Assembly (NCBI GenBank): GCA_015222115.1
Contig: JADFUO010000490.1
Coordinates: 1 to 12,627 of the forward strand
From: Bacteroidota bacterium
Lineage (GTDB): Bacteria > Bacteroidota > Bacteroidia > Bacteroidales > JADFUO01
Reading direction: 5' to 3'
Length of the DNA: 12,627 bases
Positions 4,436 to 12,627 of this stretch are shown here, piece by piece. A model generated the notes under the pieces. It was given only the letters and a program-made list of their open reading frames with translations. It had not been told where the DNA came from and ran no database searches. Both the position numbers and the translations under genes were made by a program. How positions within the stretch are numbered: position 1 is the first letter of the stretch; every line of letters starts with the position of its first letter.

Positions 4436-4477
4436 TTAGTGACTGTCTATAATGCCAATTATATTGATAAAATTTTA

Positions 4478-4512
4478 GATTTATGATTTATGATTTTTAA
4501 TTTATAATCTGC
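4478..4512 (+). repeat. Heptamer array, GATTTAT type, forward arm
   Basis: Five 7-bp registers in a row: GATTTAT, GATTTAT, GATTTTT, AATTTAT, AATCTGC. The array starts 42 bases after the gdhA stop. An array of the same unit in the opposite orientation lies 25 bases downstream at 4538-4579, so the pair could fold into an imperfect A/T-rich hairpin. A terminator role for gdhA is possible but there is no GC-rich stem. Confidence 0.7.
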
Positions 4513-4537
4513 TGATAGTCAACATAGTTATTAATTT

Positions 4538-4579
4538 TTAAATCTAAATTCTAAATTCTTAAATCGTTAATCTGAAATC
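4538..4579 (-). repeat. Heptamer array, GATTTAA type, inverted arm
   Basis: On the minus strand this reads as six 7-bp units in exact register: GATTTCA, GATTAAC, GATTTAA, GAATTTA, GAATTTA, GATTTAA. It is the inverted counterpart of 4478-4512. The 4436-4653 gap holds these two arms and the candidate promoter for the next gene; nothing else was recognised in it. Confidence 0.72.
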
Positions 4580-4603
4580 AAAAAAAATAATTTATTTATT
4601 AAT

Positions 4604-4632
4604 ATTGTATCAGCAATTATTTAGTAATCTTG
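4604..4632 (+). promoter_or_regulatory. Candidate promoter of the zinc-ribbon gene
   Basis: ATTG at 4604-4607 and TAATCTTG at 4625-4632 resemble the Bacteroidota -33 (TTTG) and -7 (TAnnTTTG, one mismatch) elements with 17 bases between them. Transcription would start about 15 bases before the ATG at 4654. Spacing is a little short, so this is tentative. Confidence 0.35.
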
Positions 4633-4653
4633 TAAAATTTAAAGAGAAAAGCA

Positions 4654-5526
4654 ATGTACGATTTTATGTCATTAAAGTTAAAATGCCCGGTATGCAACGA
4701 ATCGTTAATGGAACACGATCATTTGGTTGATAATGAACCGAGCATTAAATTAAAAATTAAAATTGCGGGGAAAAAAGGAGCGATTAATTTGAGTTCAATT
4801 TATGGCAGTTATAATTATATTTCGGATATTGAGTTGCCAAAAGGCGAAATAGCTGAATTTACTTGCCCGCATTGCAATGCTCTCATAATCTCAGATGCAG
4901 AGTGTTTAACCTGCGGTGCTCCAATGGTGCCGTTTTATCTTGATATGGGCGGTAAAGTAAGTATTTGTTCACGGAGTGGTTGTAAAAATCATAAAGTTGA
5001 GTTTGAAGACCTTTCCGATGCATTAAACAAATTGTATCAGGAATACGGCTTTGGTGGCAAAATACATGATAAAAAAATTGAACCCCATGATAAAGGCAAA
5101 AAAACCGAAGCTGTAGAAACTGATTCTAATAAAGAAATTATTCATTCGGGAACATTTTTGCAGGTATATTGTCCTCATTGTAAAAAAAGTCTTATTGAGA
5201 ACGATATGCTTAAATTAAAAATTACTACCGACGAAACAGGTTATTTAATGCTAAGCCCGTATTTAAATGTATTTACTTCAAAATCCACAATATTTTTATC
5301 CGAAGATAAAGTTATTGAAGATATAAGATGTCCGCATTGTGATAAAAGTCTGATTGTAGATAAGATAAAATGCGGAAAGTGTGGCTCTCCTGTTGCTAAA
5401 ATTTCAATCAGTGCCCGTACAAAATTTTTAGATTTTTATATCTGTACTAAAAAGGGATGTAAGTGGCATGGCTTGAGTGAAGATGATTTTTATGATATCC
5501 GGCTGGAAGACAGCGATGAATGGTAG
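4654..5526 (+). CDS. Tandemly duplicated zinc-ribbon protein of unknown function
   Basis: A 290-aa soluble protein with no signal peptide or membrane segment. It is built as two homologous halves joined by a charged, Lys-rich linker (about 135-165). Half one has metal-ligand pairs C11/C14, C71/C74, C84/C87 and a C105-x4-C110-x2-H113 motif. Half two repeats the order with C173/C176, C226/C229, C240/C243 and C264-x4-C269-x2-H272. CPHC pairs followed by a CxxCG(A/S)P pair mark both halves. Each half could hold two Zn(II) or similar ions. Between the Cys pairs lie beta-rich stretches without a family I can name. Proteins of this kind are usually annotated only as zinc-ribbon proteins. Rubredoxin-like iron binding or nucleic-acid binding cannot be decided from sequence. 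The start follows a weak purine-rich stretch (AAAGAGAAAAGC). A GTTGGCA array starts 14 bases after the stop. Confidence 0.85.
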   Translation: MYDFMSLKLKCPVCNESLMEHDHLVDNEPSIKLKIKIAGKKGAINLSSIYGSYNYISDIELPKGEIAEFTCPHCNALIISDAECLTCGAPMVPFYLDMGGKVSICSRSGCKNHKVEFEDLSDALNKLYQEYGFGGKIHDKKIEPHDKGKKTEAVETDSNKEIIHSGTFLQVYCPHCKKSLIENDMLKLKITTDETGYLMLSPYLNVFTSKSTIFLSEDKVIEDIRCPHCDKSLIVDKIKCGKCGSPVAKISISARTKFLDFYICTKKGCKWHGLSEDDFYDIRLEDSDEW

Positions 5527-5540
5527 AAATAAAGTCGACA

Positions 5541-5561
5541 GTTGGCAGTTGGCAGTTTTTT
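5541..5561 (+). repeat. Heptamer array, GTTGGCA type, forward arm
   Basis: Two perfect GTTGGCA units followed by GTTTTTT, in register, 14 bases after the zinc-ribbon stop codon. The same GTTGGCA pair recurs at 8154-8167. It forms the left arm of a pair with the inverted array at 5854-5885. Confidence 0.65.
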
Positions 5562-5622
5562 CCCCGATTGAATTACTACCAAATCATGGAAAAAACATTT
5601 TGAAAAGGCAAACTATGAACTG

Positions 5623-5769
5623 ATGATAGGTATTGATTATATTATTGATTCTGCTTCTTATATAACGGATAGTGTTGCAATAATTGGCGATTTTCAACAT
5701 TTTTACTGGAACAAGCAGGATTTTATGCCAGATAGGAACTTTATAATTTATTTTAACAAAAATGAGTAA
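5623..5769 (+). CDS. Small unrecognised ORF or gene remnant inside the array-bounded gap
   Basis: From ATG 5623 this would encode 48 aa beginning MIGIDYIIDSASY and ending IIYFNKNE. The frame is open further back to 5572, giving about 65 codons that include SWKKHFEKANYE. The predicted peptide has a protein-like mix (aromatic and charged residues, with GDFQHFYWNKQDF in the middle), so it may be a decayed piece of a longer gene. I do not recognise the family. No ribosome-binding site is obvious. Its position between two inverted repeat arrays parallels that of the four-helix-bundle gene at 8214-8585. A random open frame cannot be excluded. Confidence 0.25.
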   Translation: MIGIDYIIDSASYITDSVAIIGDFQHFYWNKQDFMPDRNFIIYFNKNE

Positions 5770-5853
5770 AAAATTCCAGCAGGCATTTTACCAAAGCACT
5801 AGAGTCCATCGGTAAATAATATTATTCCTATACTTTATTTATTTTTTGCCTAC

Positions 5854-5885
5854 TACTTACTACCAACTGCTACTGCAACTGCCAC
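5854..5885 (-). repeat. Hexamer/heptamer array, GTNGCA type, inverted arm
   Basis: On the minus strand it reads GTGGCA, GTTGCA, GTAGCA, then the 7-mers GTTGGTA and GTAAGTA. It starts 19 bases after the nfnB stop codon, in the sense direction of nfnB. Its first 14 bases match part of the array at 8614-8680. Confidence 0.68.
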
Positions 5886-5904
5886 TTGTTAGTATTTTAA
5901 GAAC

Positions 5905-7299
5905 TCAAATTTCATTTATCAGGTAATCATGAATTCCCCTTGCTGCTACCTTGCCTGCTCCCATAGCAAGAATAACAGTAGCTGCTCCGGTTGCTACGTC
6001 GCCTCCTGCAAAAACACCTTTTTTTGAAGTTTTGCCGGTTTCCGGGTCTGTGATAATATTTCCCCATTTGCCAACTTCAATATCAGGTGTTGTTGAGGGT
6101 ATTAACGGATTAGGATTATTCCCGATTGCAATAACAGCAACATCAACAGGCATTGTAAAATTTTCGCCTTCAATAGGCACCGGTCTTCTTCTGCCCGAGT
6201 CATCAGGTTCACCGAGTTTCATGCTGATACATTCAACCTCTCTTAACCAATTATTTTTATTGCCATGAAATGCAGCAGGGGTTGAAAGCAATTTAAAAAT
6301 TACTCCTTCTTGTTCGGCATGATGTATTTCCTCGTTACGGGCAGGCATCTCGGGTCTGGAACGCCTGTAAATCAATATTGATTCTTCCGCACCTAATCGT
6401 AATGCTGTGCGCGCGCAATCCATAGCAACATTTCCACCCCCGACAGTTGCTACCCGTTTTCCTTTTATAATAGGAGTTTTATATTTTGGAAACAGATATG
6501 CTTTCATAAGATTTGCGCGGGTAAGATATTCATTAGCCGAATATATCCCGTTAAGGTTTTCGCCGGGAACATTTAAAAACCAAGGTAAACCTGCACCTGT
6601 TCCCAAAAAAACAGCATCATATTCTCCTAAGAGTTCATCAACACTTTTGATCCTTCCGATTACCGAATCAGTGTATAAATTAACCCCAAATTCTTTCAAA
6701 TAATCAATTTCCCTGAATACAATGGCTTTGGGTAGTCTGAATTCGGGGATGCCATAAACAAGCACACCGCCGGGTTGATGAAGGGCTTCAAATATATCTA
6801 TTTTATGACCGAGCTTTGCCAGGTCGGCAGCAGCAGTAATTCCTGCGGGTCCTGCACCGACAACTGCAACTTTTTTACCTGTTTGTTTTGGTTTGGGAGG
6901 TATTTCAATCTCACCTTCGATTCGTTCCCAGTCAGCTAAAAAACGTTCCAGCCGTCCGATAGCTATGGGTTCATTTTTCTTGCCGACAACACATTTAATT
7001 TCACATTGTTCTTCCTGCGGGCAAACACGTCCGCATACAGCAGGAAGAATATTTTTTTCTTTCAAACGTTTTATTCCTTCTTTAAAATCTTCCTGTGCAA
7101 TAAAGCCAATAAAACCGGGGATATCAATTTCAACCGGACAACCTTCAATGCACATTGGTTTTTTGCATTGCAGGCAACGTTGAGCTTCAAGTACAGCTTC
7201 TGCCGGAGAATACCCGTAAGGCACTTCATCGTAGTTTTTTATTCTTTCCTTTGGAGGCTGCTCCCGCATAGGAGTTTTTTTTGGGCTTATTTTTGCCAT
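5905..7299 (-). CDS. nfnB: NADH-dependent reduced ferredoxin:NADP+ oxidoreductase large subunit (NfnB, GltD-like)
   Basis: Large subunit of the cytoplasmic flavin-bifurcating Nfn complex, which couples NADH, reduced ferredoxin and NADPH. The 464 residues follow the GltD/dihydropyrimidine dehydrogenase plan. The N-terminal cysteines C42, C45, C50, C54 and C89, C93, C99, C103 serve two [4Fe-4S] clusters. The characterised Thermotoga enzyme has an unusual Glu cluster ligand; E96 or E97 in CPQEEQC is the likely counterpart here. FAD-binding GAGPAG is at 148-153, the second nucleotide site GGGNVAMD at 287-294 with RRSR at 312-315 suited to NADPH, and the C-terminal FAD motif GGDVATGAATV at 432-442. 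The ATG lies 2 bases after the stop codon of nfnA, so the two are co-transcribed. Pipelines often call it glutamate synthase small subunit. The adjacent nfnA and the absence of a gltB neighbour favour Nfn. Confidence 0.92.
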   Translation of the reverse strand: MAKISPKKTPMREQPPKERIKNYDEVPYGYSPAEAVLEAQRCLQCKKPMCIEGCPVEIDIPGFIGFIAQEDFKEGIKRLKEKNILPAVCGRVCPQEEQCEIKCVVGKKNEPIAIGRLERFLADWERIEGEIEIPPKPKQTGKKVAVVGAGPAGITAAADLAKLGHKIDIFEALHQPGGVLVYGIPEFRLPKAIVFREIDYLKEFGVNLYTDSVIGRIKSVDELLGEYDAVFLGTGAGLPWFLNVPGENLNGIYSANEYLTRANLMKAYLFPKYKTPIIKGKRVATVGGGNVAMDCARTALRLGAEESILIYRRSRPEMPARNEEIHHAEQEGVIFKLLSTPAAFHGNKNNWLREVECISMKLGEPDDSGRRRPVPIEGENFTMPVDVAVIAIGNNPNPLIPSTTPDIEVGKWGNIITDPETGKTSKKGVFAGGDVATGAATVILAMGAGKVAARGIHDYLINEI

Positions 7300-7301
7300 A
7301 A

Positions 7302-8117
7302 TTAATATCTTTCGTTTGAAATAATTTCTTCTTCAAGATATGCTTTTCTTCTTGACTGAATAATATCCCAGTTTATTTTATGAGCATCAAAATGAGGACC
7401 GTCAACACATGCAAATTTGGTTTCTCCACCTACTTCCAAACGACATGCACCACACATTCCGGTACCGTCAATCATCACAGGGTTCATGCTTACAATAGTC
7501 TTAACGCCATAAGCTTGTGTTACTTCAGCAACACGGTATATCATATAAGTGCATCCGACAGCTATAATCCTGTCAGGTTTCATGCCTGATTTAAGGTTTT
7601 CTTCTAACAGGTCAAACGAGTGACCTTTTGTTCCAAGAGAGCCGTCAACAGTTGAATATCTTACTTCATCCGAAACTTCTTCAAGTTTGTCATTCCAGTA
7701 TAGCAAGAATTTGGCACGGGCTTCGGAATAACAAATTACTTTATTGCCTTTTTCTTTGAGGGCTTTTGCAACCGGATAAATACCCCCGATACCATAGCAT
7801 CCTCCTACTAACCCGACTGTGCCGTAATTATCAATTTCAAAAGGTTTTCCCAAAGGACCTGTAAAAGAATAGATATCATCCCCAGTTTTGAGTTCAGCAA
7901 GTCGTTGGGTTGTAGCTCCGATTTCTAAAAAGATAAAAGTCACGGTTCCTTTATCGACATCCCAGTCGGCAATAGTAATTGGTGTCCTCTCGCAATATTC
8001 ATCAGGGATAAGAATCACAAATTGCCCGGGAAGCGCCTTCTTTGCAATATCAGGAGCTATTACAGTGCAACTATGTATGTTGGGAGCTATTTGTGTTTTT
8101 TCTATGATTTTTACCAT
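7302..8117 (-). CDS. nfnA: NADH-dependent reduced ferredoxin:NADP+ oxidoreductase small subunit (NfnA)
   Basis: Small subunit of Nfn, related to the PyrK/ferredoxin-NADP reductase family. It binds FAD and NAD(H) and carries a [2Fe-2S] cluster. The 271 residues show a beta-barrel FAD domain with RTPIT at 44-48, an NAD-binding segment with GLVGGCYGIGGIYP, and a C-terminal cluster motif DGTGMCGACR followed by FACVDGP. In PyrK the first ligand of this motif is Cys. Here it is Asp217, with C222, C225 and C237, which agrees with the three-Cys/one-Asp ligation known for Nfn and separates it from PyrK. It precedes nfnB by 2 bases in one operon. Upstream (8118-8153) no clear ribosome-binding site or -7 element was found, and a repeat array begins 37 bases before the start. 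Whether transcription begins here or reads through from the four-helix gene is unclear. Confidence 0.93.
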   Translation of the reverse strand: MVKIIEKTQIAPNIHSCTVIAPDIAKKALPGQFVILIPDEYCERTPITIADWDVDKGTVTFIFLEIGATTQRLAELKTGDDIYSFTGPLGKPFEIDNYGTVGLVGGCYGIGGIYPVAKALKEKGNKVICYSEARAKFLLYWNDKLEEVSDEVRYSTVDGSLGTKGHSFDLLEENLKSGMKPDRIIAVGCTYMIYRVAEVTQAYGVKTIVSMNPVMIDGTGMCGACRLEVGGETKFACVDGPHFDAHKINWDIIQSRRKAYLEEEIISNERY

Positions 8118-8153
8118 GTTTCTTACTTTGTTGTTTTTTAATTAGATGATTAC

Positions 8154-8204
8154 GTTGGCAGTTGGCAATTTATAGTAGCAGCGGCAGTTGCAGTGGCAGT
8201 AGCA
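8154..8204 (+). repeat. Mixed heptamer/hexamer array, forward arm of the four-helix cassette
   Basis: Reads GTTGGCA, GTTGGCA, ATTTATA, then the 6-mers GTAGCA, GCGGCA, GTTGCA, GTGGCA, GTAGCA. Bases 8183-8205 are a perfect 23-bp inverted repeat of 8638-8660 on the other side of the four-helix-bundle gene. Confidence 0.75.
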
Positions 8205-8213
8205 GATAGTGTG

Positions 8214-8585
8214 TTATTTTGGAGAAAATTTATCAGGATTATTTGCCATGCTGCCCAACATTTTACCAACTTCTTCATATTTCAATTCTAATGATTCATG
8301 TATTTGAACATTTATATAATTACAATCTTTTGCAAAATCTAACCAAACAGTTGTTTCACTTGCTTCACCATCTGCATCTGTTATTTTACTTGTAAAGTGT
8401 TTGGGATACCTTCGTTTTCTATAAGCTTCAGCAATATTTGCACATACAGATCTTGAAGACTTTCTTATTTGATCTGTTAAAGAATACTTTTCTTCAACTG
8501 GAAAATTCTTTGAAATTTCAAATATCTTCATTGCCAATTGATAAGATAATTGATAAACTTTTAAATTTTTAAACCCATTACTCAT
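8214..8585 (-). CDS. Four-helix-bundle protein (S23/TIGR02436-like)
   Basis: A 123-aa protein with the signature of the S23-like four-helix-bundle family found in 23S rRNA intervening sequences and scattered in many Bacteroidota genomes. Visible marks are an N-terminal FKNLKVYQLSYQLA helix, FPVEEKYSLTDQIRKSSRSV, the conserved CANIAEAYRKRRY, and a third/fourth helix pair from about residue 70 to 110. The molecular role of such proteins is not settled; RNA binding has been suggested because of the rRNA association and basic surface. The related fold of the Avd accessory protein in diversity-generating retroelements is noted, but no reverse transcriptase is present. The stop codon lies 10 bases from the forward array at 8154-8204, and the inverted array at 8614-8680 lies 28 bases upstream of its start. 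TTAATTTG (minus strand, 8610-8603) is a near match to a -7 element, so it may carry its own promoter. Confidence 0.88.
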   Translation of the reverse strand: MSNGFKNLKVYQLSYQLAMKIFEISKNFPVEEKYSLTDQIRKSSRSVCANIAEAYRKRRYPKHFTSKITDADGEASETTVWLDFAKDCNYINVQIHESLELKYEEVGKMLGSMANNPDKFSPK

Positions 8586-8613
8586 AAATAATATATTTAT
8601 GCCAAATTAATAC

Positions 8614-8680
8614 TAAATACTACTACTTCCACTGCTACTGCTACTGCCACTGCAACTGCCACTGCCGTTGCCACTACCAC
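8614..8680 (-). repeat. Hexamer/heptamer array, GTNGCA type, inverted arm of the four-helix cassette
   Basis: Minus-strand units in order: GTGGTA, GTGGCA, ACGGCA, GTGGCA, GTTGCA, GTGGCA, GTAGCA, GTAGCA, GTGGAA, GTAGTA, then the 7-mer GTATTTA. It begins 2 bases after the stop codon of the NuoG-like gene and is the longest array in the window. Confidence 0.8.
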
Positions 8681-8681
8681 C

Positions 8682-11036
8682 CTATCCCAAAATATCCCTC
8701 ATATCAGGTATTAGTTTTAAAAGATCATTTCCTAAATAATTAAAGTAATTATTCTCAGCAATTATTTCAACGGGCAATTTTTTCTTCTTATCCAAAACAT
8801 CCGCCCTGACCGGTAGAATTTCATTTTTTGCTTTTTCTTCAGTTGCAAATGACAAATCAATAAAAGAATTTATTTCAGAGAAAATATCTTCAGGTTTTTT
8901 ATAATCAAATCCCTTTTCCTGCATGACTCGTGCGAGATTGGAGATAGTTTCCCATACCGTTTTAAGATTTTTTACAGGAGCCGTAACCGGTGTTATTTCC
9001 TTGAGCTTTTGTTCAAGATTAATTATGTGTCCGTTGATTTCGGTAAAGCCGGTAATTGGGAAAAACACGTGTGCGTATTCGGAAACTTCGGTAAGGAACA
9101 TGTTCTGCTGGGCAAGGAATTTCAGTTTAGCAAGATTCGGGTGGGCAGGAATATCCCCGACAACAAACAAAGCAGTAATACCATCTTCTGTGATATTATT
9201 TACCATTTCATTACCCGACAGTCCTTTGTAATTATTTAGCTCTGCATTCCAGTTGTCAGACCATTTTTTAATATTTTTTTCGCTTGCAAGCTCATCAAAG
9301 CCCGGCAAAAAATCAGGATGCATACCTGCAAGTATACTACCATAAAAATTACCTTCATTTAATAAGAAAATAATTTTGCAGGCATCCGGTTTTTTCAATA
9401 TTGTCTGAATATTAACAAGGGCATTAAAATTGAAAATACTATCAGGATTTATTAATATTCCGTCGCCTGCAATTATTACAGGTTTTTTGGAATTTGCCAA
9501 TGATTTGGCAATTTTTTCAATATCCTGACGGGAAACACCGCACTGTTTAAAGGCTTTTTCAATATCAAAACCTTTAAATTCTTGCTTGAGATCGTTTGAA
9601 AGTTTTCCTAAAATTTTATTGTTTAAAACGGATAAAAGTGATAATAAAAAAGTATGTTCTTCACCTTGTTTGTATAAAATATTTTGTTCGGCAAAGTATG
9701 ATGTTCTCGTGTCGTGAGTATTTGCAACAATTACTTTCTTGCCGTTTTCAGCTGCTTTTCTTATCCTGTTTTCAATTATCGGATGAGATAAATTAGTTTG
9801 CGAACCAATAACAAAAATAGTATCAGCATTTGTTATATCATCAATATTAGCAGGTTTATGATGAGTGTAATAGTCGTGGATTTTTTTTATTATATTTTTA
9901 TCAGGAAAAGAAGAAAGTATATCCACATTATTTGACTTCATAAGCTTGCGTGAAAATTTCTGTAATACATAATTATTTTCCAGCGATTCGTGGGCAGAGC
10001 CAATTATCCCGAACTGATTCCCGCGATATTGTTCAAGCTTATTTACTGTAAAGTTTATAGCTTCATCCCAGGTTACTTCAATCCATTTGTTTTCTTTTTT
10101 TAGCATGGGAGTTGTAATTCGTTCGGGATGGTGCATTATGTCGCCCGGAACAAACTTTCCTCTTACGCAAAGTTGTAATGGGTTTGTTCTTTTGCCTGGT
10201 TCTGGTCCCACATTGACAATCCTGTTATCTTTTGTGTTGATGTTCATCTTACAAGCAACCGAACAAAAAACACATGTAGTTTCAGTTGATTTATCAGGAA
10301 TGCCAGCCCATTTACCCATTTTTTCGGATAAAGAACCTGTTGGGCAAACATCAATACACGCACCGCAAAATTCACAACCTGCATCTTTCTGCGATTCTCC
10401 GAACGCAGTTCCCACAATAACCAAATTTCCACGTTGGACAAAATTAAGAACTTCGCTGTGTCGAATTTCATTACATACCCTTACGCAACGGCCACAGAGT
10501 ATACAAAGGTTATAATCAATATCATAAAAAGGGTTGTTTTTTTCGGGTTTGATTTCCTTATATGTCCAGGGATATCTTATTTCAGTCAGTTCAAGATATT
10601 CCACCAACTCCTGCAATTCACAGTTTCCGTTATTTGTACAGAAATTACAACCTGTAGTAACACTTACCTTACGGGTTGTTGTCATAAATTCATTACAATT
10701 ATTTTTATCCCTGCAAACCAGACAGGTATATGGATGTTCGGAAAGGATAAGCTCTAAAATTTCACGCCTGAGTTTTTGCAATTCGGGAGTTTTTGTGCTG
10801 ATCTCCATATCCTGTGCAATAGGAGTAGTACAAGCAGTAGGATAAGCCCGCATATTTTTTATTTCAACAATACAAAGGCGGCAGCCTCCGTAAGGTTTAA
10901 TATTTTCAAGATAACACAGGGTTGGAATATAAATACCTGCTTTTTGAGCAGCTTGCAAAACCGTTGTCCCAACAGGAGCATTTATTGTTTTCCCATCAAT
11001 TTTTACAGAAATATTTTGGAATTTGTTTTTATTCAT
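8682..11036 (-). CDS. NuoG/FdhA-like iron-sulfur protein with a degenerate molybdopterin domain
   Basis: Predicted electron-transfer subunit partnering the upstream NuoF-like protein. In order: a plant-type [2Fe-2S] domain (C41, C52, C55, C69); a His-Cys motif (H101, C105, C108, C114) followed by a second motif C130, C133, C139 ending GNCELQ; two [4Fe-4S] motifs (C178, C181, C184, C188 and C221, C224, C227, C231); a molybdopterin-oxidoreductase [4Fe-4S] motif (C255, C258, C262, C290); then an alpha/beta molybdopterin-type domain. Where formate dehydrogenases have Cys or Sec (DHCAR-x-C/U-H), this reads NVDILSSFPDKN, so neither catalytic residue is present, and no in-frame TGA exists there. The C-terminal molybdopterin-dinucleotide-binding domain also seems missing (784 aa against roughly 890 or more for FdhA). 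No [FeFe]-hydrogenase H-cluster motifs were seen. It therefore resembles complex I NuoG, although database labels may say formate dehydrogenase or hydrogenase. The ATG at 11036 gives a normal N-terminus. Confidence 0.85.
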   Translation of the reverse strand: MNKNKFQNISVKIDGKTINAPVGTTVLQAAQKAGIYIPTLCYLENIKPYGGCRLCIVEIKNMRAYPTACTTPIAQDMEISTKTPELQKLRREILELILSEHPYTCLVCRDKNNCNEFMTTTRKVSVTTGCNFCTNNGNCELQELVEYLELTEIRYPWTYKEIKPEKNNPFYDIDYNLCILCGRCVRVCNEIRHSEVLNFVQRGNLVIVGTAFGESQKDAGCEFCGACIDVCPTGSLSEKMGKWAGIPDKSTETTCVFCSVACKMNINTKDNRIVNVGPEPGKRTNPLQLCVRGKFVPGDIMHHPERITTPMLKKENKWIEVTWDEAINFTVNKLEQYRGNQFGIIGSAHESLENNYVLQKFSRKLMKSNNVDILSSFPDKNIIKKIHDYYTHHKPANIDDITNADTIFVIGSQTNLSHPIIENRIRKAAENGKKVIVANTHDTRTSYFAEQNILYKQGEEHTFLLSLLSVLNNKILGKLSNDLKQEFKGFDIEKAFKQCGVSRQDIEKIAKSLANSKKPVIIAGDGILINPDSIFNFNALVNIQTILKKPDACKIIFLLNEGNFYGSILAGMHPDFLPGFDELASEKNIKKWSDNWNAELNNYKGLSGNEMVNNITEDGITALFVVGDIPAHPNLAKLKFLAQQNMFLTEVSEYAHVFFPITGFTEINGHIINLEQKLKEITPVTAPVKNLKTVWETISNLARVMQEKGFDYKKPEDIFSEINSFIDLSFATEEKAKNEILPVRADVLDKKKKLPVEIIAENNYFNYLGNDLLKLIPDMRDILG

Positions 11037-11065
11037 AAAAATTTAGTAAAATTTTCCCAGTTTAA

Positions 11066-11291
11066 TTAATTTATAATTATTATTCCCTTGTTTGCTCTGC
11101 CTTGCATTGCTCCGCGAAAATTTCTTACTTGCGAAGAAGAAACTGCTCCCCAATATCTTTTAGCTTGAAAAAGAACATTAAAACCCATTAATGGATTTTC
11201 TTCACTTGAATTCCCTGAACCACCTAATTCTTTTAGAGTCTCAATTAGCGGATTAATATATTTTAAAAAATTCTGGTCCTTTCATTTTCAT
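11066..11291 (-). pseudogene. Remnant of an Mrr-type restriction endonuclease
   Basis: From ATG 11291 the minus strand reads MKMKGPEFFK, then hits TAA after two more codons. Shifting by one base in the A run near 11262 continues as YINPLIETLKELGGSGNSSEE and runs open to TAA at 11068-11066. The first part resembles the N-terminal Mrr_N winged-helix start (KGPxFxxYxxPxLxxLxxLGGSG). The later part, FQAKRYWGAVSSSQVRNFRG followed by AMQGRANKGIIII, resembles the Mrr catalytic core around its QxK motif. About 75 codons remain of a protein normally near 300 aa. The middle, with the catalytic Asp, is deleted and the end is missing after KGIIII. One frameshift, one internal deletion and a truncated C-terminus make this a dead gene. 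Family identity is from recognised motifs, not a search. Confidence 0.72.
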
Positions 11292-11312
11292 ATTTTATCT
11301 TTATTTATAAAC

Positions 11313-11346
11313 TGTTACTATTAACTTATAACATATAACTAATAAC
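11313..11346 (-). repeat. Heptamer array, GTTATAA type
   Basis: Minus-strand units GTTATTA, GTTATAT, GTTATAA, GTTAATA, then GTAACA; looser copies extend it to about 11305-11370. It begins within about 16-40 bases of the NuoF-like stop codon and lies just before the Mrr remnant. No inverted partner was found on the far side (11037-11065). Confidence 0.6.
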
Positions 11347-11385
11347 ATATTTAACATTACATATCAACACACCAATTAGTTACAA

Positions 11386-12627
11386 CTAAACAATAACAAT
11401 AGCATCACCAGCAATAGCATCAAAACGACATATCTCGTAACATGCCCGGCATTTTATACATTTTTCCGGGTCAAGATTATGCGGTTCGCTACGCGGACCT
11501 GTAATAGCGCCGGTAGGACAAACACTGACACATCTCTGGCAACCCGTACATTTTTCTTTTATAACACGATATTCAACCAGATCGCGGCAAACGGCAGCCG
11601 GGCAACGTTTTTCTTCAACATGCGCCAGGTATTCGTCTTTAAAATATTTTAATGTTGTCAAAACAGGATTGGGAGCAGTTTGCCCTAGCCCGCATAAGGA
11701 GCCGTTTTTAACCGTACTTGTAAGTCCTTCCAAAATTTCAATATCTCTCGTTTCAGCTTCTCCTTTTGTTATTTTTTCAAGTATTTCCACCATTTTATGA
11801 GTTCCTATACGGCAGGGCGTACATTTCCCGCAACTTTCCTGGCTTGTGAAGTTCAGAAAATATTTAGCAACATCCACCATACAAGTACCTTCATCCATTA
11901 CAATGAGACCACCTGAGCCCATAATAGAGCCTGCACTGACAAGAGATTCATAATCAACAGGCAGGTCAAGGAATTCTTCTGACAAGCAACCACCGGAAGG
12001 TCCGCCGGTTTGAACTGCCTTGAAAGGTTTTAATGTTCCGCCGCCAATATCAAAAATGATTTCACGCAAAGTAGTTCCCATTGGGACTTCAATCAATCCT
12101 GTTCGCCGCACTTTACCTACAAGTGCAAAAGTCTTTGTTCCTTTACTTTTTTCAGTGCCAAAACCCGAATACCATTTACCTCCTTCACGCAGAATGTTGG
12201 GGATAGTACCAAGGGTTTCAACATTATTAATATTTGTAGGATTTCCATTAAGCCCAGAAACAGCGGGAAATGGCGGTCTGCTTCTGGGCATACCTCTTTG
12301 ACCTTCAATTGATGCAATTAAAGCTGTTTCTTCACCGCAAACAAATGCACCTGCACCTTCTTTTATTTTAATATCAAAATTAAAGCCCGTATTTAAAATA
12401 TTTTTCCCGATCAGACCTAACTTATGCATTTTTTGTATGGCAATTTTTAATCTTTCAATTGCCAATGGATATTCGGCACGTATGTAAATATATCCGTGAT
12501 TTGTCCCAATAGCATAAGCGGCAATAAGCATTCCTTCCAATAAAGCATAAGGATCACCTTCCATGAGGGAACGGTTCATAAATGCTCCGGGGTCGCCTTC
12601 ATCGGCATTACAAATCAGGTATTTGGG
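11386..12627 (-). CDS. NuoF/HydB-like NADH-binding flavoprotein with C-terminal 2[4Fe-4S] ferredoxin domain, 5' partial
   Basis: NADH-oxidising subunit of a soluble complex I-like or bifurcating oxidoreductase. The reading frame is open to the window edge and reads [16 protein letters not shown] before the Met at 12579, a conserved NuoF segment. The real start therefore lies outside, with the FMN glycine-rich loop and probably a thioredoxin-like [2Fe-2S] domain. Visible parts are [20 protein letters not shown] and the SLBB region, then [13 protein letters not shown] and GSLCGLGQ, which bind the N3-type [4Fe-4S] cluster. The C-terminal ferredoxin domain has C344, C347, C350, C354 and C374, C377, C380, C384 (counted from the Met at 12579). 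That extension is typical of HydB/HndC-type proteins, not of respiratory NuoF. The downstream NuoG-like gene is its likely partner, although a 349-bp gap separates them. A NuoE-like gene probably lies upstream, outside the window. Confidence 0.93.

Follow-up and report, generated by a model that had tools for sequence, protein, structure and literature searches.

The short tandem arrays that occupy the intergenic gaps of a 12,627-nt contig from a Bacteroidota bacterium (JADFUO010000490.1; the whole contig is referred to here as the window) can be traced, with a probability that we put at about 0.75, to small mobile hairpin elements of which they are the arms or the leftover arms. The main kind of these elements would be a free-standing intervening sequence (IVS) of the 23S rRNA type, in which a gene of the 23S_rRNA_IVP family (IVP gene) stands between two inverted arrays. 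At IVP loci from about 15 phyla, arms match each other within a locus and differ between loci; the 5' arm is G-rich, the elements lie at stop codons in the sense of their neighbors, and both empty sites and decayed copies were found. IVSs and heptamer arrays are known, whereas free-standing IVP elements with array arms appear to be new.

The window (contig C399) belongs to a draft assembly of 2.3 Mb in 534 contigs with 83% completeness, designated G000, for which 3 congeners (G001, G002, and G003) were available for comparison. According to the list of open reading frames (ORFs) and family scans, its genes comprise gdhA, a zinc-ribbon gene, gltA-like, DHODB-like, NuoG-like, and NuoF-like genes as well as 23S_rRNA_IVP.

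An IVP gene within the strongest inverted pair of the window

The original prediction for this DNA, made from the sequence alone, had described short-period arrays in the gaps past position 4436, located just behind stop codons and partly arranged as 3 inverted pairs. The arrays were recovered by Tandem Repeats Finder, and a detector restricted to periods 6-9 called 5 of them, all 5 outside ORFs, compared to 100 Markov simulations that averaged 0.08 arrays and never had more than 1. The placement was borne out by the offsets from ORF ends, which amount to 1 nt past the stop for the gdhA element (about 37 nt for the array proper), about 6 nt for the zinc-ribbon gene, 1 nt for the NuoG-like gene, about 18 nt for the gltA-like gene, and about 35 nt for the NuoF-like gene, and it proved general for IVP loci as well. 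The pairing, by contrast, is uneven. Judged by inverted-repeat scores against 500 shuffles per window pair, the pair 8150-8205/8612-8682 is strong (score 25.5, matched by 0/500 shuffles), the pair 5533-5557/5846-5890 is modest (10.0, 1/500), and the pair 4472-4508/4525-4572 is weak on its own (11.5, 11/500), though it belongs to a family of dispersed elements described below. Around 11060/11310, no inverted pair was found in G000 (311/500 shuffles reach the score), and an Rfam scan of the window returned no match reaching the gathering score.

What had been overlooked is the gene that fills the space enclosed by the strongest pair (predicted as 8154/8614), namely an IVP gene whose stop precedes the array at 8154 (Table 1). 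Its product belongs to the family, matching PF05635 with an E-value of 1.3e-34 and 119.1 bits (cut-off 33.8) over residues 6-111, and TIGR02436 with 105.3 bits (cut-off 24). It is also above the cut-off for bAvd (PF22296; 54 bits vs. 40) and falls short of the Avd equivalog model of diversity-generating retroelements (45 bits vs. 80). As in an IVS, the reading frame lies within complementary arms; the window element sits amid protein genes, not inside a 23S rRNA gene. Folded as RNA, it is predicted to form a long stem (z -5.95). The element is retained in G002, with both arms differing by whole units, while G003 has lost one arm and half of the IVP gene. The NuoG-like gene has no close copy in G001 (best 28% identity), hence the site is not comparable there. 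None of the phage records matched the IVP of the window, which leaves phages unsupported as carriers.

Table 1. Features in the intergenic gaps of the window.
Feature	Position	Strand	Remarks
Decayed copy of a miniature inverted-repeat transposable element (MITE)-like family	4436..4578	plus	Directly past gdhA stop (stop ends 4435)
Parts of the 4436..4578 copy	Left terminal repeat ~4437-4457; period-7 array 4472-4508; core; inverted array 4525-4572
GTTGGCA array	5533..5557	plus	~6 nt past zinc-ribbon stop (5526)
Open stretch separating the 5533 and 5850 arrays	5572..5766	plus	No Pfam match at E 1; not IVP
Inverted partner array, CAACTGC/CACTGC units	5850..5886	minus	~18 nt past gltA-like stop (minus, 5905)
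3' arm of IVP element	8154..8205	minus	C-rich on the element's sense strand; past IVP stop
IVP gene	8214..8585	minus	123 aa, PF05635/TIGR02436 four-helix bundle; in sense with NuoG-like and DHODB-like neighbors
5' arm of IVP element	8618..8680	minus	G-rich on sense strand; 1 nt past NuoG-like stop (8682)
Mrr-type restriction endonuclease gene fragment	11072..11281	minus	Mrr_cat PF04471, 1.3e-06
Solitary TAACATA/TAACTAA array	11322..11350	minus	Past NuoF-like stop (11386); no partner in G000

Matched arms at IVP loci across phyla

The draft genome of the window contains 14 IVP matches, 13 of them above the cut-off, and IVP genes are present in 44 of 60 relatives and, at the level of the phylum, in 300 of the 392 sampled genomes. 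In the own genome, the flanks mostly carry a locus-specific unit inverted on both sides, e.g., around GGCTAA, GGATACT, or TTGGAATA; one flank (L014) is truncated by the contig end. Arms were evaluated by comparing the inverted-repeat score of native flanks with that of swapped-partner pairs at the 95% and 99% levels. The loci used throughout are the best-scoring ones returned, with 29 loci of relatives and 30 loci of a later phylum set taken from longer lists and 12 loci from 38 plasmid records. For the order-level set (43 loci from the own genome and relatives, 38 with full flanks), the median score was 18.75 vs. 9.5 for swapped pairs; 34/38 loci exceeded the 95% level and 25/38 the 99% level.

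The same pattern extends well beyond the order. A scan of named genomes confirmed 579 stretches, and the 80 best-scoring ones, which were retained, covered about 15 phylum-level groups (assigned by record title, mostly drafts with unchecked labels), including Patescibacteria, Desulfobacterota, Acidobacteria, Omnitrophica, Fibrobacter, and Chloroflexi. Sufficient flank was available for 76 of these 80, an archaeal draft locus (L139) being among those that lacked it. Native arms exceeded the 95% level at 57/76 loci and the 99% level at 32/76, compared to 11/86 and 7/86 for control genes from the same loci. Furthermore, the IVP of the window matched 38 plasmid records, mostly cyanobacterial (16 from Nostoc), and a second IVP query matched 39. 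Among the 12 fetched plasmid loci (11 cyanobacterial, 1 from Azospirillum), 11 score at least 14.5 and 9 pass an automatic 13-point rule; the best period is 7 on both flanks in 4 of them, including Azospirillum, and 8, 9, or mixed in the others. Arrays of period 8 or 9 are also found in the genome of the window and in those of relatives, which speaks against the unit length fixed at 6 or 7 that had been predicted. The later phylum set (30 loci returned, one dropped for a stop) gave a weaker signal, with 15/29 loci above the 95% level and 12/29 scoring at least 13, compared to 3.8% of swapped pairs, a control that is harsh here since related loci have units in common; in the corresponding gene control (n = 4), 0 were above the level.

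Filled and empty sites

An IVP element of about 600 bp in G000 (C237) is missing at the same site in all 3 congeners, in which the flanks, 89-97% identical, lie 2 bp apart and no arms are found. The insertion point is close to the end of the upstream gene, to which the element supplies a new stop. Another IVP of G000 (C424) is missing in G001, where a different hairpin takes its place. A hairpin element of another type, with arms CCTACGAGGTTT, was observed in G001 (C86, L096) and G003 (C5, L118) at sites where G000 has an IVP element.

Comparable differences were found on complete, named plasmids of cyanobacteria. In Nostoc sp. MS1, an element directly follows a stop codon, and none is present in Trichormus ATCC 29413 and Nostoc NIES-3756; 2 Nostoc plasmids carry at a stop codon an IVP, with a 5' array and scarcely a 3' one, that is missing from 4 related plasmids; and one plasmid of Nostoc UHCC 0302 (L131) has an IVP that is missing from 2 sister plasmids of the same strain. 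Moreover, Picosynechococcus PCC 7003 (L134) has an IVP between cas10 and cmr3, which PCC 7002 lacks. The L134 gene lies within a type III-B CRISPR operon, and a figure legend in a CRISPR-association survey also names 23S rRNA IVP (PMC10910872), which perhaps reflects IVP genes placed inside CRISPR operons as at L134. On 3 Nostocales plasmids (L124, L125, and L127), the IVP gene lies immediately upstream of a tyrosine recombinase gene; 2 fetched related plasmids have the recombinase gene and no IVP.

Where duplications at the element ends were seen on plasmids, they are short and imperfect (7-10 bp; L128 and L135). At L013, ACAATAA flanks both sides, yet the congeners have ATGATGA at that place. 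A single target-duplication rule was sought across L013, L128, L135, L131, L134, and L124/L125, and none was found.

In G000 and the congeners, separate contigs carry IVP copies that are about 91-97% identical and have outer repeats in common. At one site (L004), the element is complete in G000, and the 3 congeners have 3 different deletions: internal loss of the IVP gene, loss of the IVP gene and one arm, and collapse to one short array. Together with the partial loss of the window element in G003, these deletions make solo arrays an expected end state. A palindrome, CCCGAGTACTCGGGA, was noted within or beside 2 elements (L008 and L002) and by eye seems to take the place of another palindrome between copies.

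Orientation, placement, and lineage of the arms

Orientation was counted for loci with neighbors within 600 bp, for which 121 of 135 loci qualified. The IVP gene lies between 2 sense genes at 98 loci, between 2 antisense genes at 2, and in the 2 mixed contexts at 11 and 10. For control triplets of other genes at these loci, the counts were 46 sense, 7 antisense, and 7 and 9 mixed; the later phylum set gave 25, 0, and 2 (mixed). As the arms are inverted copies of each other, orientation matters mainly for the gene; the bias therefore suggests that the element depends on the transcript of its host or inserts directionally, and it could be increased if antisense copies, being unexpressed, are lost. 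The arms themselves are polarized: G exceeds C in the 5' arm at 87/93 loci and at 12/12 in the later set, compared to 38% of the 40-base windows upstream of 289 control genes. Stop triplets are enriched in 5' arms (297 vs. 219 +/- 10 in shuffled arms). With respect to placement, the 5' arm starts at a median of 12 nt past the upstream sense stop (55/83 within -15 to 30), and the 3' arm ends at a median of 17 nt ahead of the next sense start (n = 83).

Across 100 loci (4925 pairs, 25 pairs with alike neighborhoods having been removed), arm similarity tracks the similarity of the IVP proteins (rho 0.197, Mantel 0/500 permutations). The 43 close IVP pairs comprise 17 non-syntenic and 26 syntenic ones. 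Units are shared in 11 of the 12 non-syntenic pairs with both arms called, pairs that are non-independent in that most involve the same few Nostocales loci. One of the pairs spans a cyanobacterial plasmid and a Bacteroidota draft genome (L132 and L195).

The sense orientation and the numerous syntenic pairs would also suit functional intercistronic hairpins that are under selection for transcript stability or translational coupling, with the IVP as a resident regulator instead of a mobile passenger. Similar roles have been proposed for the hairpins of cyanobacterial short tandemly repeated repetitive (STRR) sequences (PMC2670836). However, the differing deletions at L004 in 3 congeners and the patchy presence look like the fate of dispensable sequences, and we regard selected hairpins as an unlikely explanation.

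A MITE-like family after gdhA

The array pair behind gdhA belongs to a second kind of element. The window copy is decayed, with a recognizable left and no recognizable right terminal repeat, and its family is dispersed, with dozens of full or partial matches in G001-G003, of which the longer ones are mostly 75-88% identical. An alignment was made of 14 congener copies, the copy in the window, and the ortholog of the latter in G002. It revealed terminal inverted repeats about 20 bp long that read roughly TAGTGCCTGTCCATAAAGTCA, as well as a core that is conserved and heptamer units that vary in order. By eye, 7 of the 14 aligned copies are bounded by a TA-rich 6-bp target duplication, exact in 6, and for one copy (G001:C168) a clean empty site exists in G002 (C131). 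The family thus combines the terminal inverted repeats, target duplications, and empty site that characterize MITEs.

These features, together with one L012-type IVP element that by eye has its right end in common with the family, are what could be expected if all of the elements were classic transposase-driven MITEs, mobile through terminal repeats and a transposase acting in trans, with arrays and IVP genes as passengers. Such an origin for the whole set is improbable in our view: arms recur around IVP genes at plasmid and cross-phylum loci, where no systematic scan for terminal repeats was made.

Solo hairpins and arrays without an IVP gene

Two solo hairpins in congeners correspond to IVP versions in G000 (C312) and G001 (C158), in which the IVP gene lies amid direct copies of the hairpin arm; for C312, this rests on a contig end past the second copy. 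It could be concluded that the arrays are pre-existing hairpin targets into whose loops IVP genes insert. The same 2 cases fit equally well the loss of an IVP gene through recombination between direct copies, and no array is present at the empty site for G000:C237 or opposite the plasmid loci L128 and L131, so that pre-existing targets appear distinctly unlikely.

Arrays are also frequent apart from IVP genes. A sample of 40 contigs chosen by number (193 kb of G001 and 81 kb of G000) contained 50 arrays: 37 in G001, of which 29 lie outside ORFs and 23 have period 7 (3 in one simulated control), and 13 in G000, of which 9 lie outside ORFs and 4 have period 7 (1 in the control). Ordinary slippage in non-coding DNA, with IVP genes only tolerating low-complexity spacers, would account for such plentiful arrays, mostly without a strict partner, and for the gain and loss of whole units among close relatives, but it is very improbable, as it does not produce matching units in inverted orientation to the left and right of a gene (57/76 loci vs. 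11/86 control genes) and is opposed by arms that are absent at the empty site and present with the insert, and that track the IVP lineage.

A number of observations weigh against the arrays being arms of mobile hairpin elements. A strict inverted pair within 1.5 kb was found for only 3/37 sampled arrays in G001 and 0/13 in G000, and the 40 sampled contigs yielded no IVP gene; thus, intact IVP elements account for a minority of arrays, and the others could be remnants, MITE-like copies, or of some different origin. At one locus of G001 (L216 8506-9349, C5), an inverted heptamer pair flanks a gene that by eye resembles an outer-membrane barrel, and there the 3' array is translated as the C-terminus of the barrel-like protein. 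One IVP (L007, G000:C433) has no arms and a conserved place; 157-aa IVPs without arms (L007, L063, and L068) occupy the same place in G001 and G002, and copies of this type are possibly domesticated. At L135, the 5' array is present and the 3' array scarcely so. Furthermore, the old spacer was replaced and not split at L131, L134, and apparently L124/L125, and 2 outgroups of L131, which have other spacers, do not distinguish gain from loss at that locus. With 26 of the 43 close IVP pairs being syntenic, many insertions must be old. A test for concerted evolution or compensatory change of the arms at one site gave no support, since arms combined across genomes match each other as well as native partners do. 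The predicted RNA folding of the Picosynechococcus element (z -0.43) and of the MITE-like copy (z -1.64) is unremarkable. Finally, no transposase or reverse transcriptase was identified, the search having been confined to the window.

Other gaps of the window

In the gap between the zinc-ribbon and gltA-like genes, an IVP gene was looked for within the 5533/5850 pair and none was found; the open stretch between these arrays is possibly a remnant of former cargo. The gap (5527-5904) is a turnover hot spot, and it differs in G001 and G002 despite a zinc-ribbon gene that is 95-96% identical. The gap behind the NuoF-like gene (11036-11386) harbors, beside the solitary array, the Mrr-type gene fragment, which the original prediction had missed and which is possibly former cargo as well. 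In G002, this fragment is shorter and has a second, partner-like array on its far side; G003 has a different array there.

A proposed mechanism

We propose that the main kind of element consists of a 5' arm, an IVP gene, and a 3' arm, together about 450-600 bp, and would lie, oriented like the operon, between a stop codon and the start that follows it. The arms would pair in the transcript and expose the IVP reading frame in a loop, by analogy with 23S rRNA. Tandem units may allow the stem to re-pair in any register, so that whole units could be gained or lost with the stem kept, and G without C in one arm would block folding inside that arm. The homology with bAvd, which we take to be the reverse-transcriptase partner of diversity-generating retroelements, suggests that the IVP protein might bind its own arms and that the copying machinery might act in trans, with a reverse transcriptase as a candidate because bAvd is homologous to IVP; no reverse transcriptase is present among the 7 window proteins scanned. 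Decay through deletion would leave solo hairpins and solo arrays. The second kind would be MITE-like, with terminal repeats and no gene.

A bolder version, which we consider doubtful, would make IVP elements a widespread unrecognized retro-mobile class that inserts via RNA at operon stop codons, with the IVP bound to the tandem arms on its own transcript and recruiting, in trans, a reverse transcriptase. A considerable part of the intergenic heptamer arrays of prokaryotes, STRR sequences perhaps included, would then be living or dead arms, and the 23S rRNA IVS would be the branch that reached rRNA. This version is made less probable by the arms on cyanobacterial plasmids, which mostly have period 8 or 9, not 7.

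With regard to interpretation, the original prediction had proposed a mobile element at 3' ends, and the mobility is backed by empty orthologous sites, stop-adjacent placement, and whole-unit length changes among close relatives. Its further suggestion of a process that copies length and spacing has become unnecessary, given that the arms arrived with the element at the best empty site and that units track the IVP lineage. Nor do the arrays form one family, since at least 2 kinds of element have this design, one with an IVP gene and one MITE-like.

Relation to known repeats and significance

In the IVS of 23S rRNA, the complementary arms on either side of an S23 reading frame form a stem in the RNA, which RNase III cuts; the IVS is termed a selfish element with a sporadic distribution (PMC4990558). 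An S23/IVP reading frame between 2 complementary arms is common to both, whereas the elements described here lie at stop codons amid protein genes and have tandem arrays with locus-specific units as arms; cutting by RNase III has been described for the IVS. Cyanobacterial STRR sequences are intergenic and hairpin-capable, with short tandem units of usually 7 bp, and their function is not known, roles having been suggested without proof (PMC2670836). The original prediction had named them as a loose precedent. Here, IVP genes on cyanobacterial plasmids carry tandem arms, with periods of 7, 8, or 9 as opposed to the usual 7 bp of STRR sequences; judged from the published description of STRR sequences, a link between the two is possible and worth keeping in view.

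The TAACTGA repeats of Beggiatoaceae are abundant intergenic heptamer arrays that also occur in some cyanobacteria and Bacteroidetes and for which spread by a mobile element was considered (PMC4679880). They differ in having a single fixed unit and 169 direct sets with one inverted, and the paper does not contain the terms "intervening sequence", "four helix", or "S23". The family behind gdhA resembles MITEs in its terminal repeats, target duplications, lack of a gene, and dispersed copies, and differs from them in its sub-terminal heptamer arrays with units varying in order and number between copies. IVP is homologous to bAvd (PF22296), while the Avd equivalog model and a reverse transcriptase among the window proteins are both wanting. 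Searches of open-access papers turned up none tying IVP genes to tandem arrays.

In 7006 prokaryotic genomes, heptamers were the most abundant intergenic tandem repeats, with no clear clue to function according to that survey (PMC6344855). The present findings provide a first concrete handle on this very common, unexplained type of repeat, which in the clearest cases represents the arms of small mobile elements. The link of some heptamer arrays to the IVP family makes arm binding, mRNA cutting, and mobility testable, with 2 solved structures available among relatives, and the little-studied IVP family gains a genomic context outside rRNA.

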